From Candidatus Rifleibacteriota bacterium (lineage in GTDB: Bacteria; Muiribacteriota; Ozemobacteria; Ozemobacterales; Ozemobacteraceae), in assembly GCA_905236865.1 (NCBI GenBank), contig CAJOQX010000353.1:1-34208 (forward strand): a stretch of 34,208 nucleotides of DNA. The letters run 5' to 3'. Positions 1 to 9,970 of this stretch are shown here, one piece after another. Positions within the stretch are counted from its first letter, which is position 1. Every line of letters starts with the position of its first letter. The notes beneath the pieces are model-generated. The model was not told where the DNA came from and searched no databases. It was given only the letters and a program-made list of their open reading frames with translations. The translations under genes and the position numbers were made by a program.

Positions 1-3000
1 AAACGAGGTGTTGAGCCTGTATCTTGTATGTGACGGCGATGCGTCGAACAGGTCGTTCCCGTTGTGGTCTATGCTGAAAGTTATGACTGGCATTGTTTTT
101 ATGCCATGGTTCTCAAACTTGTTGAAGCTTATGGCTTCTATGTCAGACAGATCTCCGAGCTTTATGGCATAGGTCGTGTCTGGTTCCAGATAGCCGTCGA
201 ACGAGAGCCTGATCATATTTCCGTCCCACGCCTTTATCACCTTGCTTTCTGCGACACCTTCCACAGAAAGGGCACCAAGTATCACGCCCTTGTCATGAGC
301 GTTAAAAACATAGTCAGGATTGATAGTGAACGACGGATTCAGCCTGTATAGCTGGCCTGGTTCGTCGAAGACCCTGCCGGTATCGGATGCCAGAGTAATA
401 TTAATTGTCCTCATGGTGTGGAATGTGAAATCGGCGAAAGGCTTCGCGACAACGCCCCTTATGCCTGTCGAGGTATTGACAGAAATCGTATAGTCGGTAT
501 CGGGATCCAGGTAGTGGTTGACCGCCAGTCTGATACTGTCGCCGACCCATGTCATGACCAGATCGTCATGGTCAACACCCGATATGTTGACCGCGCTTTC
601 GACAAGCGCCCTGTCTGTCGGATTGAATGGGACGCTTGGTGTTATTACGAAAGTGGGGTTGAGCCTGTAGAACTGGCCTGGCTCGTCAAATACGCTTCCT
701 GTGGTTGATGCAAGAGTGACCAGGACTTCCTCCATCGTGCTGAAAGGGAAGTCCCTGAACGGTTTTACGATAACGCCCGAAATGCCTGTGTCGGCAGAAA
801 GGCTGAGTGAATAACTTGTTTTCGGAGTAAGATAGTCCTTCTGCGTGATTCTCAGACTGTTCCCGACCCAGTCCCTGTTGATGGCGTCATGGGCGACACC
901 CTTGATAGAAACAGCGTTCGCAAAGAGCTCCCTGTCGCTATCGTTAAAAGTGACGCTCGGAGTCACTGTGAAAACTGGATCCAGCCTGTAAAGGCCTTTT
1001 CCGTCATAGAAAACGCTTCCGTCAACAGTCGTATATGTTGCGGTCGCCCTGTCCATGGTCTTGAACTGCTTGCTTTCAAAATTTGCAACCACCATCCCGT
1101 CTACTCCGACGGAGCTCGCCATATTTACGGTGTAGTCCTTGCCAGGTTCCAGATAATTCTTGAACCCGAGCACGAGCCTGTCATACACGCCGTCCTTCTG
1201 CCAGTCAAAGACCAGATCGTCTTTCACAACGTCCGTCACCGATATTGCTGATACTATCCCGTCCCTGTCTCTATCGTCAAGCATAAGATTCGTGGTTATG
1301 GAAAAGGTCGGGTTGAGCCTGTAAAGACCGCTGCCGTCGTCAAAAACGCTGCCGCCGTTTTCTGCTATATTGACTATGAGGACACCTACGGTCTTGAAAG
1401 ACACTTTTTCGAAAGGTCTCACTTTCAGACCCTCCAGTTTTATGTCTTCATCCATGGTGAGCTCGTAATCCGTGCCTGTGTCCAGCTTGCCAAGGAAACT
1501 GATCTTGAGGGTGTTGCCGTCCCACACTTTCTTTATTCGTTCGTCATCAAGCCCCTTAAGGTGGACCGATTTTTCCACAGTTGACTTTTCTGATTCTCCA
1601 AGGGTGAAACTGGGTTCTATAAAGAAAGTCGGATTGAGCCTGTATTTGTTCTCCGCCTCATCATAGACGCAGGACGGGTCTTTGGTAACTTTGAAAGTCA
1701 CCGCTCCCTTAGTCGTAAAACCGAAGCTGTCGAATGTGTTTATGATTACACCGTCTATACCAGTATCGGATAGCATTTCTATCTTGTAGGCCTCTCCCTC
1801 TTCCAGATCTTCCCTGAAACTCAGTGTGAAACTGTCGCTGGCAGTCCACTTCACCACAAGGTTGCTGCTTTCAACTCCTGCTACAGACACAGATTTGGCA
1901 ATCTTTACCCTGTCGGACTCCTTGAAGGGATAGCTGGTCTTCACTGTGAAAGCGGGGTTGAGCCTGTAGAGGCCTCTCTCCCTGTCGATGACATTGCCCT
2001 GGTTGGAACCGAGGGTTACGTCTACCTCGTCCATTGTTGTAAAGGAGAAATCTTTAAAAACGGAGATGTCAACACCTTCTACGCCTGTGTCGCTCGCCAT
2101 GGTGACAGTATATTCCGTTGCCGCATCAAGTCTATTCTTGAAGCTGATATTCAAAACATCGTTTTCCCAGGTTTTTGTCAGCGACGAACTTGCCACATTC
2201 GAAACGGATATGGAATCGGCTATTTTTTTCTTGTCGCTGTCGCTGAAAGAGAAACTGGGAGTGATAGAAAACCTGGGGTTTATCTTAAAAAGTCCGTTTG
2301 GCTCGTCAAAGATATTTTCTTTTGGCGAGTCAAATTCCACCTTTATACCGTCCATAGTGGTGAAATCAAGGTTGTCGAAACATTTGATGCTGTAGCCTTC
2401 CACATCTGACGGCTCTTTCATGGACAGGACGTAGTTCGTGGAACTGTCCAGGCCGCCTACCACGCCCACATACAGTTTGCTGCCATCCCATCTCTTTTCA
2501 AGCCTGTTGTTGGAAACGGTGGAAATGGAAATGGAGTCGGCCACCCTCCTCTTGTCCTCGTCGTCAAGCATATATCCCAGGTCGATTGTGAAGGCGGGAT
2601 CTATTCGGTAAAGGCCGTTCTGGCTGTCGAAGATATTCTTATCGGAATCAGACAAGGTAACGGTCACATCGCCCATCGTGGTAAACTTATGGTCGTCAAA
2701 ACATACAACGGTGATGTTTTCAATCCCTGTGTCCGATGCCATCGTGACAGTATAGGTGGTGTCGGTCGCAAGATAGCTGTCGAAGCTTAGTGTCAGCCCA
2801 TCCTCGCCCCATATTTTGGCGAGCTTCTGCCCCGAAAGGTTGCTGACAGAAATCGAGTTCTCGATTTTGACACGGTCCGCTTTTTCAAAATTATGGGTTG
2901 ACTTTACAGAAAATCTCGGGTTGAGCTTGTAGATGTTGCCATTCTCGTCCGCGAAGCTGGATTTTTCTGGCGTTATGCTGAAAAGCACATCGCTGTATGA

Positions 3001-4071
3001 GTCGAATGTAACATACTGCGAGTAGACAAGAGGCCGCGAAAGACCGCTTTCTTTTCGGCTGAAAAACTCTATCAGGAATCTCTGCGGGAAATCCTCCTCC
3101 GCCATCCCTTTGATATTTAACGTGAAAGAGTATTCCGCCTCCGAATATGTCTTGGCGAAGCTTATAAGATTCGTGATGTCGAACGAGTGGGAGTATCTGC
3201 CCTCCTCTATGCAGCTGTCGCTGAAGTTGGACTGTTTCACAAGTTTTCCGTTCACTTTCACCCGGTCAGGTATTTCGCTGTTGTTACGGTATGTGAGCCT
3301 GACAACCAGGTCCGAATCGTCGAACGACTCCAGGTTGACACCTTTCAGAACGCTTTTTACAAAGAGGTCGTCGCAGTACTGGCTTTTGGAATTCATCAGC
3401 ACGGCAGAGGTCGAGGTCGCCACAACCGCATCTATCACCGTTTCGGGTTTCAAGGCGTCAGGCTTCATTATCGCCAGGGCTATCTGCACCCCTGCACGGT
3501 AAAGCTCGAACTTGCATTCTTTCGGGGCTGGCTGTTCCGCCGCCCTGGATGGTACAGTATTCGCTATCTTTGTTATCTGGTCGGTGACTCTTGAAAAACG
3601 CCACGGCTCGTTTTCGGAAGTCTTCACCGCCACGTAGCAGAGCCCTGTGTCGCTGACAGGATTTGGAATAGTGAGGGTGAAAGGCTTTTCCAGGGTTGTC
3701 ACCTGGACATCTTCTACCAGTGGGCTGTCTGACTTGTAGACGGCTTTCACCGTGTAGACATAGATGTAGTCGGAAGGAAGCCCTATTTTTTCTTCGCCTG
3801 TGTTTGTGTGCTTCTCTTCCATAACGGTGACAACGACGCCTGAGCGCATGGTCGCGTCATTGTCTGTCTCTATTTTAGCCCCTGACGGAAAAGTTATCGG
3901 GGGCATCCTGCCGTCGTCGTTCACCACGGCTTCCCTGCACAGTATCTCCATGGTGGATGACGGGACATAGCCAAGGCTGTTAAGGCCGTCGCTCCCCTTT
4001 CGGTTGCAGCATCCGTATATGAAAATCATAATAAGAATTATGACCGTTATTATCGATAGGTACTTCTTCAT
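1..4071 (-). CDS. Giant secreted lipoprotein with tandem ~107-aa Ig-like (Big_5/SbsA_Ig-like) repeats; 3' end beyond the window
   Basis: ATG at 4071-4069. Forward-frame-1 triplets 1-4071 were read individually and contain no TTA/CTA/TCA, so the minus frame is open for 1357 codons. N-terminus MKKYLSIITVIILIMIFIYGCCNRKGS has a signal peptide and lipobox (IYGC). The motif [LIF][YF][RK][LI][ND]P.F recurs with its Asn/Asp codon at + positions 337, 658, 979, 1312, 1633, 1957, 2278, 2599 and 2920, plus a variant (YRLNTSF) at 10. Each unit also has ..W....L.(I/L)SF...L...T.Y.(V/I).M..DTGI.G....F..F.FTTM. Not in the ORF track, probably because it runs off the edge. Confidence 0.9.
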   Translation of the reverse strand, partial: MKKYLSIITVIILIMIFIYGCCNRKGSDGLNSLGYVPSSTMEILCREAVVNDDGRMPPITFPSGAKIETDNDATMRSGVVVTVMEEKHTNTGEEKIGLPSDYIYVYTVKAVYKSDSPLVEDVQVTTLEKPFTLTIPNPVSDTGLCYVAVKTSENEPWRFSRVTDQITKIANTVPSRAAEQPAPKECKFELYRAGVQIALAIMKPDALKPETVIDAVVATSTSAVLMNSKSQYCDDLFVKSVLKGVNLESFDDSDLVVRLTYRNNSEIPDRVKVNGKLVKQSNFSDSCIEEGRYSHSFDITNLISFAKTYSEAEYSFTLNIKGMAEEDFPQRFLIEFFSRKESGLSRPLVYSQYVTFDSYSDVLFSITPEKSSFADENGNIYKLNPRFSVKSTHNFEKADRVKIENSISVSNLSGQKLAKIWGEDGLTLSFDSYLATDTTYTVTMASDTGIENITVVCFDDHKFTTMGDVTVTLSDSDKNIFDSQNGLYRIDPAFTIDLGYMLDDEDKRRVADSISISTVSNNRLEKRWDGSKLYVGVVGGLDSSTNYVLSMKEPSDVEGYSIKCFDNLDFTTMDGIKVEFDSPKENIFDEPNGLFKINPRFSITPSFSFSDSDKKKIADSISVSNVASSSLTKTWENDVLNISFKNRLDAATEYTVTMASDTGVEGVDISVFKDFSFTTMDEVDVTLGSNQGNVIDRERGLYRLNPAFTVKTSYPFKESDRVKIAKSVSVAGVESSNLVVKWTASDSFTLSFREDLEEGEAYKIEMLSDTGIDGVIINTFDSFGFTTKGAVTFKVTKDPSCVYDEAENKYRLNPTFFIEPSFTLGESEKSTVEKSVHLKGLDDERIKKVWDGNTLKISFLGKLDTGTDYELTMDEDIKLEGLKVRPFEKVSFKTVGVLIVNIAENGGSVFDDGSGLYRLNPTFSITTNLMLDDRDRDGIVSAISVTDVVKDDLVFDWQKDGVYDRLVLGFKNYLEPGKDYTVNMASSVGVDGMVVANFESKQFKTMDRATATYTTVDGSVFYDGKGLYRLDPVFTVTPSVTFNDSDRELFANAVSIKGVAHDAINRDWVGNSLRITQKDYLTPKTSYSLSLSADTGISGVIVKPFRDFPFSTMEEVLVTLASTTGSVFDEPGQFYRLNPTFVITPSVPFNPTDRALVESAVNISGVDHDDLVMTWVGDSIRLAVNHYLDPDTDYTISVNTSTGIRGVVAKPFADFTFHTMRTINITLASDTGRVFDEPGQLYRLNPSFTINPDYVFNAHDKGVILGALSVEGVAESKVIKAWDGNMIRLSFDGYLEPDTTYAIKLGDLSDIEAISFNKFENHGIKTMPVITFSIDHNGNDLFDASPSHTRYRLNTSF

Positions 4072-4224: not shown

Positions 4225-5679
4225 ATGGATACTTCAATGAATTTGGGTTTGACTCAAAGACTTAGTCAAACCTTGAAAATGACACCCGAAATGCAGTTAG
4301 CTATTAAAATTTTACAGCTAAATTCTGCAGAGTTAAAAAGCCAAATTCAAGAAGTACTAGAATCTAATCCTGTTGTTGAATTAGATGAATCTACTAGTTC
4401 TTCAAACGAACTTCCTTTAGATAAAATCGAAGAAACACAATCTGATGGCACTATTGCTTCAGTAGAATTCAAAGAAGCTAACAGAAATGATTATGGGGTA
4501 GATTGGCAGAAATACATTGAAGATTCTGATAGCAACGAAATAAAAAATTATTCTAGTAACTATAGTGATGATACAGAAAACTCCTATGAAAATTTTGTTT
4601 CTAAAAAAATAACATTACGGGAACACTTAACAAAACAGATAAGTGAAGTAAATCTTTCTCCTACAGAGCAAAAGATAGCTGAATATATGATAGGTCTTAT
4701 TGACAATAATGGTTACTTGCGAATCTCTAATCAGCAAATTGCCGAATTACTAAAAATAGATGAATATATAGTAAAAAAAGTTCGTAGTATTATTCAAACT
4801 ATGGATCCTACAGGAGTTGGAGCTTACGATTTAAAAGAATGTCTTTTGATACAAGCAAAAGATGAAGGTTATGAAGACGATATAGTTATAAAAATAATTT
4901 CTAACCATTTAGAAGATATAGCACAAAATAAATTAAATAATATAGTTAAAGCTACAGGCTACAAATTAGAAGAAATTAGAGATGTAATAGATACTATTAA
5001 AAGTTTTGAACCTAGACCAGGAGCTTCATTTCCTACAACGGAAGAACAGGTTTTTATAACTCCAGAAGTATTTATAGAAAAAATCGATGATGAATATATA
5101 GTTACAGTTAATGAATCTGATATACCTCAATTAAAGATAAATACAGCTTATAAAGATGCTTTAAAAAAGTTAAACAAAACAGAGAAAGCAACTGGAGATT
5201 TTATTAGAAGTCGTTTAGAATCTGCTCGATCATTTTTAAAATATATAGACAAAAGAAAAGAAACTATATTGAACGTTACCAAAGCTATTTGTGAAATACA
5301 AAGAGATTTTTTTGATTATGGAATATTGCACTTGAAGCCTCTAACGCTTCAAGACGTTGCTATGATGGCTGGTATTCACGAATCAACTGTTAGTCGTGCT
5401 ACTAACGGCAAATATGCTCAAACTCCAAGAGGAATATTTGAATTGAAGTTTTTCTTCTCAGGAGCAGCAAAATCTCAAATTGGTGATGATGTTTCTACAA
5501 TAGCTGTTAAACAAAGAATTAGCGACATTATCAAAAATGAAAATCCTGCAAAACCTTTATCTGATAGTTCTATTGTAAATATGTTAGCAAAAGATGGTAT
5601 TGATGTTGCACGTAGAACAGTTGCAAAATATCGAATAGAACTAAATATTCCAAGTTCATCAGCAAGAAGAAAGAAATAA
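4225..5679 (+). CDS. rpoN: RNA polymerase sigma-54 factor
   Basis: N-terminal region I (LGLTQRLSQTLKMTPEMQLAIKILQLNSAEL...ESNPVVE) and C-terminal RpoN box (ARRTVAKYR). Confidence 0.97.
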   Translation: MDTSMNLGLTQRLSQTLKMTPEMQLAIKILQLNSAELKSQIQEVLESNPVVELDESTSSSNELPLDKIEETQSDGTIASVEFKEANRNDYGVDWQKYIEDSDSNEIKNYSSNYSDDTENSYENFVSKKITLREHLTKQISEVNLSPTEQKIAEYMIGLIDNNGYLRISNQQIAELLKIDEYIVKKVRSIIQTMDPTGVGAYDLKECLLIQAKDEGYEDDIVIKIISNHLEDIAQNKLNNIVKATGYKLEEIRDVIDTIKSFEPRPGASFPTTEEQVFITPEVFIEKIDDEYIVTVNESDIPQLKINTAYKDALKKLNKTEKATGDFIRSRLESARSFLKYIDKRKETILNVTKAICEIQRDFFDYGILHLKPLTLQDVAMMAGIHESTVSRATNGKYAQTPRGIFELKFFFSGAAKSQIGDDVSTIAVKQRISDIIKNENPAKPLSDSSIVNMLAKDGIDVARRTVAKYRIELNIPSSSARRKK

Positions 5680-5685
5680 TGCCTT

Positions 5686-8124
5686 ATGGAACACAAAACA
5701 TTAGACAATCTAGAATTTCCCAAGATATTAGGCAAAATAGCACAATTTGCTTCCTCCAGAGCGGCTAAAGAAAAAATACTTTCTCTAGAGCCGTCTACAG
5801 ACCAAAACGAAATACTTGGCTGGCTTTCTGAAATAGAAGACTATAAAAATTATTCTGAGGCAGGAGTAAAGTTGAATACTGGCTCAGTAAATGATATTAG
5901 GGAGCTTGTAGAAATTTTAAATTCAGGTTCTACAATTCTTGGAAGTGATGATTTTCTAAAAGTTAGAGCTAACATTCAAATTACAGGAAGTCTTAAAAAA
6001 AATTTTGAAAACCAAACTTCTGGTTGGGCAATAAAACCGACTGATAGAATTGCTGAAAGAATAAAAGCAATGCCACCATTAATTACACTTTGTCAGAGAA
6101 TTGATGATTGCATAGATGACCATGGGCAAATAAAAAACACTGCTTCGCCTGCATTAGCTTCTATTAGAAGAGAATTTACTAAAAATACTCAAGAAATTGA
6201 AAAACAGCTTAATTTGTTTTTGAATTCCCATTCAGATGATATCCAAGATCACTACTTTACTTTAAGAAACGAGCGTTATGTTGTTCCTGTGTTAGCTTCT
6301 TCTCAAAACAGAATACAAGGAATTGTTCATGACCAATCAGCAACGGGTCAGACTTTGTTTATTGAACCTTTACAATTTTTGCCCATGAACAACAGATTAG
6401 CTCAGCTTCGTCTTTCTGAAAGGGAAGAAATACGCAAAATTTTGACTGCTTTAACTTCTATATTGTGTCAATCAAAATCTGCAATGATTGAACAATTTGA
6501 AACGCTTATATGGCTTGATACAGTAAAAGCAAGAAACGAATTTTCAATACAATATAATGCTCATAAACCAGAAATATCAACAGAACACGAATTAGTGCTA
6601 AATAAGGCAAGACACCCATTGTTACATCCAAATTGTGTTCCACTTGATATAAAAATGAACAACGCGCAGAGATGTATTATTATTACTGGTCCTAATGGTG
6701 GTGGGAAAACCGTTTCTCTAAAAACAACAGGAATAAATGCTCTGTTAATGCAAACAGGGAACTTTGTTCTTGCTGATGTTGATGCAAAATTGCCGATTTT
6801 TTCTGAAATATTATCCGACATAGGTGAAAGCCAAAGTATTGAAGACCATTTGTCTACTTTTACTGCTCACTTAAAACGATTAAAAGAGATTTCTGATTTG
6901 GCTGACGGAAAATCTTTGGTTTTGATTGACGAAATCTGTGTTGGAACAGACCCAATCGAAGGAGGAGCACTAGCTTCTGGTTTTTTAAAAGAAATTGCCA
7001 ATAGAGGAGCATTTAGTATTGTGACCTCTCACTACGACTCTTTGAAGCGAGTTGCTTTTACTACTCCAGGCTTTATTAATGCTGCAATGGAATTTGATTA
7101 TGAAACATTCAAACCCACATTCAGATTTTGTCTTGGAATTCCAGGCAAGAGCAATGCACTAGCTATGGCTCGTTCCTTTGGTTTACCAGAAAGCATTTTG
7201 ATGGATTTGGTTGATGCAAATTCTGGCGAACATAAAGACGAAAAGGGGCTTATTGAAGCGATAGAAAGAGAACGAAATCGAGCAGAAGCGTTAAGACGAA
7301 GCTATGTTCAAAAAATTACAGCTTTAAGAACAAAAGAAGCAGAAGTTGAAGAAACACTCACTCAGCTAAGAGAGTTTCGTAAAACAAAAAGAGATAAGCT
7401 TACAGAAGAATATACAATAGAACTTCGCAATAAAATGAGAACTTTTGAAACTTTGATTTCAAAGTTAAAAACAACTATTGAAAAACATTCAAGCGAAAAT
7501 ACTATAGAGGAACTAAAACAAGCATTAGAGGAAGCTAGAGGTGCTCATACTTCTGTAAGAGCTACAAAATCTAAGCTTGAAGAACAGCAGAACGAAGAAG
7601 AAAAAGCTAATAGAAAAGCTTTTAAAGAAGCTGATAAAGCTGAATTTAAAGAGGGAATTAGCGTAATTTGGAAACAAAATATGCATAAAGGCACATTTAT
7701 TAAATTTTCTGGTAAAGATAGTGCTGAAATTGATTTTGATGGAATGACAATGCGTGTTAAGCTTGCAGATTTAGCCATTAACAAAAATAAAATAAAAAAG
7801 TCAGAAAATCAAAATACTGGTGCAATTTATTCTGTCACACCTCTGGTGAAAACAGAATTAGATCTACGTGGAATGAGAGTTGAAGAAGCTCTTGACGAAT
7901 TAGATTCTTATCTTAAAATGGTTAGCGATACAGATGCGGCACAAGTCTTTATTATTCATGGGAAAGGCACAGGGGCGTTACAGAAAGCCGTAGAAAACTA
8001 TCTTAAAAACAGTCGTTGGAAAAAGAAATTCCGTCCTGGTCGCTATGGCGAAGGTGATTTAGGGGTTACTGTTGTAACTTTCAAGCAATCTGAAGCTAAA
8101 GAACCTGAAGGATATAGGGTATAA
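5686..8124 (+). CDS. mutS2: MutS2 family ATPase with C-terminal Smr domain
   Basis: Walker A GPNGGGKTVSLKTTG, Walker B-like LVLIDEICVGTDPIEGGAL, C-terminal Smr motif ELDLRGMRVEEAL...IIHGKGTGAL; starts 6 nt after rpoN. Confidence 0.97.
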   Translation: MEHKTLDNLEFPKILGKIAQFASSRAAKEKILSLEPSTDQNEILGWLSEIEDYKNYSEAGVKLNTGSVNDIRELVEILNSGSTILGSDDFLKVRANIQITGSLKKNFENQTSGWAIKPTDRIAERIKAMPPLITLCQRIDDCIDDHGQIKNTASPALASIRREFTKNTQEIEKQLNLFLNSHSDDIQDHYFTLRNERYVVPVLASSQNRIQGIVHDQSATGQTLFIEPLQFLPMNNRLAQLRLSEREEIRKILTALTSILCQSKSAMIEQFETLIWLDTVKARNEFSIQYNAHKPEISTEHELVLNKARHPLLHPNCVPLDIKMNNAQRCIIITGPNGGGKTVSLKTTGINALLMQTGNFVLADVDAKLPIFSEILSDIGESQSIEDHLSTFTAHLKRLKEISDLADGKSLVLIDEICVGTDPIEGGALASGFLKEIANRGAFSIVTSHYDSLKRVAFTTPGFINAAMEFDYETFKPTFRFCLGIPGKSNALAMARSFGLPESILMDLVDANSGEHKDEKGLIEAIERERNRAEALRRSYVQKITALRTKEAEVEETLTQLREFRKTKRDKLTEEYTIELRNKMRTFETLISKLKTTIEKHSSENTIEELKQALEEARGAHTSVRATKSKLEEQQNEEEKANRKAFKEADKAEFKEGISVIWKQNMHKGTFIKFSGKDSAEIDFDGMTMRVKLADLAINKNKIKKSENQNTGAIYSVTPLVKTELDLRGMRVEEALDELDSYLKMVSDTDAAQVFIIHGKGTGALQKAVENYLKNSRWKKKFRPGRYGEGDLGVTVVTFKQSEAKEPEGYRV

Positions 8125-8218: not shown

Positions 8219-9970
8219 TCACTGACTGACGCGAACCATATTGACTACAACTGGTTTTGAAGAAGTAAAAGTTAAAGTGTAGTTATTAGTATGAACTAGA
8301 TTGCTAAAACCACTAGGCTGCTCAAGAAAAAATCTTACTGTTCCACCGTTAGCAGGAATAGTATGTTTATCTTTTAGAATATCTATTTTATTTAATGAAT
8401 CCAAAGAAACAAAGCGATTTTCTATTTCATTTTTACTAACTTCATGAAATTGCCCATTGTTATCTTTAGAAAAATTCAAATTTAAATTTGTCTTAAAAAT
8501 ATGTTTTTGATTATTGCTATAAGCTACATCATAAGGATTGATTAAATAATTGCTAAGAGTTACATTACGTAATTTTTCATTTAAACAAGCAAAATTAAAA
8601 TCTATTGAAAGTTGTTCTAGAGTTCTATCGGTAATTAAAGAAGAAAATTTTGAAGTGCCTCTAGCCCCTTGACATATTTGTCGTAAAGTTTCTTTGCCAT
8701 ATTGTTCATAAATATAATAGAAAAAAAGCCCTTTTTGTCCATAATGAGCTAAAGCCTTATTTGTATCTTTCCCATAATCAAAATTTTGGATAGTTAGTTC
8801 TGGCATATAATATGAAGCATAATAAAATCTTGCATCATCTCCAGGAAAGTCAAGATGTTCACCACCATAATAAAGACTAAATGTCATAAGACCTTCTTGA
8901 CTTCTTTTGTTTCTATATAGAATTTCAGAGCATACTGCTAAACCTTCATCTATCCAAAGAATTTCGCTACTAGTGCCTTGATTTCTTTTTGCAGAAAAAT
9001 TAACTATATGTTGCATTTCGTGAGCTAATGTTTCTCTTGCATCCATGAACCATTTTTCATAAGGTTCATCACCAGATTTCATCACAGCAATACTAATCAT
9101 ATCACGAGGATTTGACGTATAGTTTATACTAGAAGTATCAAAAACTCCTGCTACATTATCTCCATAATTATTTACAATTGGTGAAAAAACTATAGAAAGT
9201 TTTTCGTCATTATCTACGTCATGCCAGAAAATATCTGTTCCATCTCCAAAATATTCTTTTAAAATAGGATAAATATAATAATCAAATTCTGTCGCAAATT
9301 GTTCTAAACTAGCATCTGAAATTTTAGGAGCGGCGATAGAACCATCTTTATCTTGGTCAACAAAGAATTTTCCATAATTTGACACTTTAGCCAAAGTACA
9401 ATTTCTAGATTTGTTAAGAACGGTTATACTAATGTCTTTATCACCTTGAACTTCATTTTGATGGTTTGAATTAGCTCTTATAGAAAGTCTTTTATTATTA
9501 GCTTCATTTTCTAAATATTTATTGTAAAGTTCTTGTTTTAATTTATCTTTTGTTATTGGGTTTTCTCTGAATTTTATATTGGAAAAATCCATAATATCAG
9601 AACTGTCACAAAGAGAATCGTCGTTTTTCGTATCAGTAGCGATAGAAGCTCTAAAATTATAAGTTGTAGGCGGAGTAACATAAAGTTCAGATATTGCTGA
9701 ACTATTGGGGTTTGTTACCAAACATTCATATAATACTCGTTCAGAAACAATTGGTATATTTTTTATTTCTAAAGAAGATTGTTCATTGTAAGCACTATAA
9801 GTTTTTCCAGATACTGTCAAATTTTCAACAATAGAACTTTCAGAATCATAATAAGAAGCAGTTGTAGACGAAGTAGGGAATATTTCTTCCCAAAAACCAC
9901 CACCACTACTTCCACAGCCAACTAACAATAAGATAAATAGTATAAATAATGAAAAAAATCGTTTAGACAT
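8219..9970 (-). CDS. Lipoprotein zinc metallopeptidase (M30/hyicolysin-like)
   Basis: Lipobox LLVGC near the N-terminus; HEXXH motif in ETLAHEMQHIVNFSAKR followed by WIDEGLAVCSE. Confidence 0.75.
   Translation of the reverse strand: MSKRFFSLFILFILLLVGCGSSGGGFWEEIFPTSSTTASYYDSESSIVENLTVSGKTYSAYNEQSSLEIKNIPIVSERVLYECLVTNPNSSAISELYVTPPTTYNFRASIATDTKNDDSLCDSSDIMDFSNIKFRENPITKDKLKQELYNKYLENEANNKRLSIRANSNHQNEVQGDKDISITVLNKSRNCTLAKVSNYGKFFVDQDKDGSIAAPKISDASLEQFATEFDYYIYPILKEYFGDGTDIFWHDVDNDEKLSIVFSPIVNNYGDNVAGVFDTSSINYTSNPRDMISIAVMKSGDEPYEKWFMDARETLAHEMQHIVNFSAKRNQGTSSEILWIDEGLAVCSEILYRNKRSQEGLMTFSLYYGGEHLDFPGDDARFYYASYYMPELTIQNFDYGKDTNKALAHYGQKGLFFYYIYEQYGKETLRQICQGARGTSKFSSLITDRTLEQLSIDFNFACLNEKLRNVTLSNYLINPYDVAYSNNQKHIFKTNLNLNFSKDNNGQFHEVSKNEIENRFVSLDSLNKIDILKDKHTIPANGGTVRFFLEQPSGFSNLVHTNNYTLTFTSSKPVVVNMVRVSQ

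Follow-up and report, generated by a model that had tools for sequence, protein, structure and literature searches.

Introduction

Intimin and invasin are inverse autotransporters and not lipoproteins. At its distal end intimin carries a lectin-like tip, and Periscope proteins have stalks of variable length that are built from highly identical tandem repeats (PMC9704523). Tandem Big_5 domains are present in LdtMt2 of Mycobacterium tuberculosis (PMC3605043). Candidatus Riflebacteria are encountered in rumen metagenomes, and our literature search found nothing on their surface proteins.

Here we describe a gene from a rumen Candidatus Riflebacteria species whose product is, with a probability of roughly 0.7, a long rod-like surface lipoprotein and probable adhesin. 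We analyzed a stretch of 34,208 bp ("the window") that starts at the first base of contig C353 of a metagenome-assembled genome (MAG; 440 contigs, 78.6% complete, 2.9% contamination). The gene belongs to a set of paralogues in which one base domain is combined with different stalks and tips.

Results

An open frame at the contig edge encodes most of a giant lipoprotein

On its minus strand, the window is stop-free from an ATG at position 4071 to the window edge at position 1. This frame of 1357 codons, which a preliminary description of the DNA had pointed out as unlisted, is missing from the ORF list because such lists leave out by default any frame that continues past the end of the contig. 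Since the window begins at the first base of C353, that record holds nothing past position 1. The frame does not reflect chance, because it scores 64.7 bits with Pfam Big_5 (PF13205), where the cut-off is 23.6 (E = 1.5e-17; three stretches pass individually), and shows a dN/dS of 0.14 relative to a paralogue in the same genome. The window holds the first 70% of the protein (positions 1–4071, minus strand), and the rest would be read on contig C203 of the same genome.

The product opens with a lipoprotein signal peptide (MKKYLSIITVIILIMIFIYG-CC; positions 4006–4071, minus strand) with the lipobox Cys at residues 21/22. By eye, Cys21 is the lipobox residue, in line with the lipobox proposed earlier, and similar lipoprotein starts (..LYGC, ..LIGC, ..FWGC) can be seen in most paralogues. 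The N-terminal region that had been put at about 380 aa corresponds to a base region of about 320–360 residues, predicted to be all-beta (approximately residues 23–359; positions 2995–4005, minus strand). It is followed by nine tandem Big_5 units of 107–111 aa each (residues 360–1329; positions 85–2994, minus strand) and by the initial part of a tenth, cut by the contig end (positions 1–84, minus strand).

Outside this system, the gene for the sigma-54 factor RpoN lies divergently at positions 4225–5679 on the plus strand. Together with a MutS2-like gene behind it, it occupies positions 4225–8124, and a 583-aa ORF at 8222–9970 (minus strand) had no Pfam match. We detected no Rfam family within the window. 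A phage or plasmid origin was rejected, as tblastn gave no match in phage or plasmid records.

The stalk consists of diverged Big_5 units with a predicted Ig-like fold

Counted from the N-terminus, the conserved Asn/Asp codons are spaced by 321, 321, 321, 324, 321, 333, 321, 321, and 327 bp, exactly the numbers reported before in reverse order, and a further spacing of 321 bp leads to an 11th unit past the window edge. The previous count of at least nine domains of ~107 aa agrees with the nine full units in the window; it leaves out the tenth, which has started there, and the joined protein has 11. Pairwise identity between units is 24–47%, with a mean of 32% at the amino acid level, so the strong divergence noted at first sight is real and the high identity of Periscope repeats is not seen. 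Low identity between units also led us to reject a recent repeat expansion of the Periscope type. Together with the dN/dS of about 0.14, it supports the proposal that the repeats are old, selected copies.

In an AlphaFold model, three adjacent units were predicted as tandem Ig-like beta-sandwiches with a mean pLDDT of 87.6; the alignment behind the model had 7 rows, and the five models spanned 65 to 87.6. The best fold matches in the PDB were structures of the LdtMt2 transpeptidase, and SbsB and EA1 also matched. TM-scores across the three-unit model were low (about 0.25), which presumably reflects a differing inter-domain arrangement, with the LdtMt2 match being valid at the level of the single domain. 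The Big_5/SbsA_Ig-like identity, first suggested from sequence pattern, is thus supported by Pfam, by the model and by the fold matches.

An 87-bp contig overlap leads to a candidate C-terminus

Bases 1–87 of the window (no strand) match the final 87 bases of contig C203 exactly, as an assembler overlap. A third identical copy was not found in the bin, and the paralogue contig C173 has 6 mismatches over the same 87 bp. The contig pair C173/C104 of the same bin also overlaps by 87 bp; as expected, the recurrent length fits an assembler's word length. Past the overlap, the frame, the unit spacing and the collinearity with the intact paralogue are all kept. The overlap of the contig ends strongly suggests, short of proof, that C353 continues into C203. 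Proof is not to be had from gene order because rpoN, which lies beside the 5′ end of the giant gene, and the TetR–TolC–HlyD genes beside its 3′ end are located elsewhere, with other neighbors, in genus-mates with readable flanks. The neighbors of rpoN differ in G001–G003, and therefore the location of the giant gene is not conserved.

Joined in this way, the protein would reach its C-terminus, which had been sought past position 1, at 1935 aa: 11 Big_5 units would lead into Flg_new_2 and Flg_new (InlB-type) repeats and then into a tip of ~183 aa, encoded at positions 3346–3894 of C203 (minus strand). The tip had no sequence match in Pfam, NCBIfam or the PDB, and none among the proteins of the 24 family genomes searched.

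A paralogue with the same stalk ends in a C-type lectin domain

A complete paralogue of 1896 aa lies on contig C173. It shares the lipobox, the base and the 11 units, which are in register, and has 83% amino acid identity to the part in the window. Its C-terminus is a Lectin_C (C-type lectin) domain (E = 8e-14) with EPN and WND motifs visible in the sequence, and the PDB relatives of this tip include mannose receptors, DC-SIGN and collectins. The two genes begin to resemble each other in DNA sequence at the ATG, and the similarity fades where the first InlB-type repeat is reached. The DNA upstream of them and the genes that follow are unrelated, and at a dS of 0.67 non-coding flanks could have diverged past alignability. 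Over 1640 shared codons, dN was 0.092 and dS 0.672 (ratio 0.14), which shows purifying selection over the frame.

For a MAG as fragmented and incomplete as this one, and with its 2.9% contamination, one could ask whether the near-identical stalks are a single gene from two strains merged in the bin instead of paralogues. We regard this as improbable, given that the flanking genes are unrelated on both sides, that the tips differ and that each of the four genomes of the genus has several copies of the base domain.

The two paralogues have diverged unevenly. Protein identity is 64% in unit 5 and 56% in unit 6, both near synonymous saturation, but reaches 93% in unit 10 and 91% in unit 11, and the clustering of synonymous changes exceeds that in all 5000 permutations. 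This pattern fits recombination among family members; selection or a mutation rate that varies along the gene could also produce it. A donor for the diverged units 5–6 was not found among the fetched paralogues. A speculative reading, to which we give perhaps one chance in a few, is that base and stalk form a platform whose tips are swapped by recombination among paralogues at scattered loci, giving combinatorial and changeable surface receptors. If so, the 83%-identical stalks, the unrelated tips and the mosaic divergence would be a snapshot of the process.

Surface lipoproteins of the TvpA-like kind are diversified by diversity-generating retroelements (DGRs), which have a reverse transcriptase and a template repeat that corresponds to the tip apart from changes at adenines. 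No match to RVT_1 (reverse transcriptase) was found in the genome of the window (78.6% complete), and the DGR template regions of genus-mates did not match any of the seven tips tested; we therefore rejected DGR diversification for these tips. The genus-mates G002 (L066) and G001 (L067) each have a DGR, composed of a reverse transcriptase and a pair of 70-nt repeats whose only differences are at 9 adenines, adjoining a DUF6273 protein and apparent phage genes.

One base domain is shared by a genus-restricted set of proteins

The base region (~320 aa) had no Pfam match common to the members, a match to Endotoxin_C (1.7e-6) being seen in one member alone, and no sequence relative in NCBIfam or the PDB. 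Its model was all-beta and well predicted over approximately residues 41–361, with pLDDT mostly 75–93 apart from short, lower-scoring stretches; within this model, the first Big_5 unit was poorly predicted because the other alignment rows did not cover it. Generic beta-sandwich and adhesin-like folds were the sole matches in the fold search, with TM-scores of ~0.2 or lower by query length. The first half of the domain looks ZU5-like (UNC5b at rank 11), a lead and no more.

A first profile, A1, had no pattern conserved enough for a scan of the collection, and a smaller alignment took its place. With the base-domain profile, each of the four genomes of the genus yielded between 9 and 16 matches, including fragments; 36 further genomes of the phylum, drawn from 19 other genera, yielded none. 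Named relatives were Candidatus Riflebacteria MAGs (goat abomasum, reindeer) and the uncultured bacterium isolate RUG334. Copy number, singled out earlier as worth comparing among relatives, proved variable: the number of Big_5 units per member runs from 0 to 21, and many members have Flg_new repeats in their place. This range is found among diverged paralogues, and the closest pair has 11 and 11. The C-termini are FGE-sulfatase (in several members), Lectin_C, GLUG or orphan domains.

The largest member reaches 3104 aa and ~21 Big_5-like units when C104 and C341 are joined across an overlap of 57 bp. C104 in turn adjoins the end of the C173 contig by 87 bp, and the two giants therefore lie close together. 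One member, on G003:C53, contains a stop and a frameshift and is possibly a pseudogene or an assembly error. Proteins of ~1927 aa on G001:C296, G002:C106, G003:C19 and G003:C2 have weak, partial similarity to the base domain and are perhaps a second, related family.

The variety among members bears on two other functions. A structural, S-layer-like envelope lipoprotein, with the Ig array as coat or spacer and the variable C-termini as passengers, would be in keeping with the fold matches to the S-layer proteins EA1 and SbsB and with several copies per genome. A coat is, however, expected in few, uniform copies, and here the C-terminal fold classes differ, the number of Big_5 units runs from 0 to 21 and one C-terminus is a recognizable C-type lectin domain, so that we consider this role unlikely. 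Less probable still is that the stalks serve as an enzyme scaffold, in the periplasm or at the surface, and hold out catalytic or sensor domains of FGE-like or C-type-lectin fold at their C-termini: FGE-sulfatase domains do end several members, but the tip of the window protein has no enzyme family match and its closest paralogue has a C-type lectin domain.

Discussion

Most likely, the gene belongs to a family of stalk-and-tip adhesins that is specific to its lineage and has diversified through duplication, recombination and the exchange of tips. In such a protein, a lipid on Cys21 would hold the chain in a membrane, with the all-beta base domain next to it; 11 serial Ig-like Big_5 domains would form the stalk, extended by two InlB-type repeats, and the C-terminal tip would be the point of contact. 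Paralogues that retain the base and vary in stalk length and tip could make up a set suited to different targets, among them possibly plant fiber glycans, mucin, protozoa and other microbes. We infer outer-membrane display, the rod shape, adhesion and the targets from the architecture; the protein might alternatively be a periplasmic lipoprotein. For the window copy, adhesion is argued from the paralogue because its base and its own tip have no known relatives, and the C-type lectin tip of that paralogue supports the putative stalk or adhesin of the preliminary description. Because FGE-fold domains can also be enzymes, adhesion may not hold for every member.

The family and its base domain, which has no current Pfam entry, appear to be undescribed. 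The modules and the base–stalk–tip plan are already known; what appears to be new is the base domain and the genus-restricted set of paralogues with the same base and different tips. That a single genus combines one base with several tip folds and with stalks ranging from 0 to 21 Ig units suggests that attachment is a large part of its lifestyle, and the genus probably uses the family to stick to varied surfaces. Isolated tips could be expressed and tested for ligands.

Among described systems, LdtMt2 shares with the window protein the sequence family of the repeat unit (Big_5, PF13205) and the predicted fold, but there two Big_5 domains precede a transpeptidase whereas here 11, and up to 21 in the family, form the stalk of a lipoprotein. 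Methanogens of the gut and rumen likewise have a large multigene surface set with Ig-like repeats, their adhesin-like proteins (PMC11532034); these differ in being archaeal, with archaeal Big domains. An Ig-like stalk is also found in intimin/invasin and in the leptospiral Lig proteins (BIg repeats; Lig: PMC7821625), although it is built there from other Big families. Like Periscope proteins, the family varies in repeat number among homologues and would form a rod-like array of beta-sandwiches on a surface-anchored protein, but Periscope repeats are highly identical, whereas the units here share 24–47% identity and are equal in number in the closest pair of paralogues.
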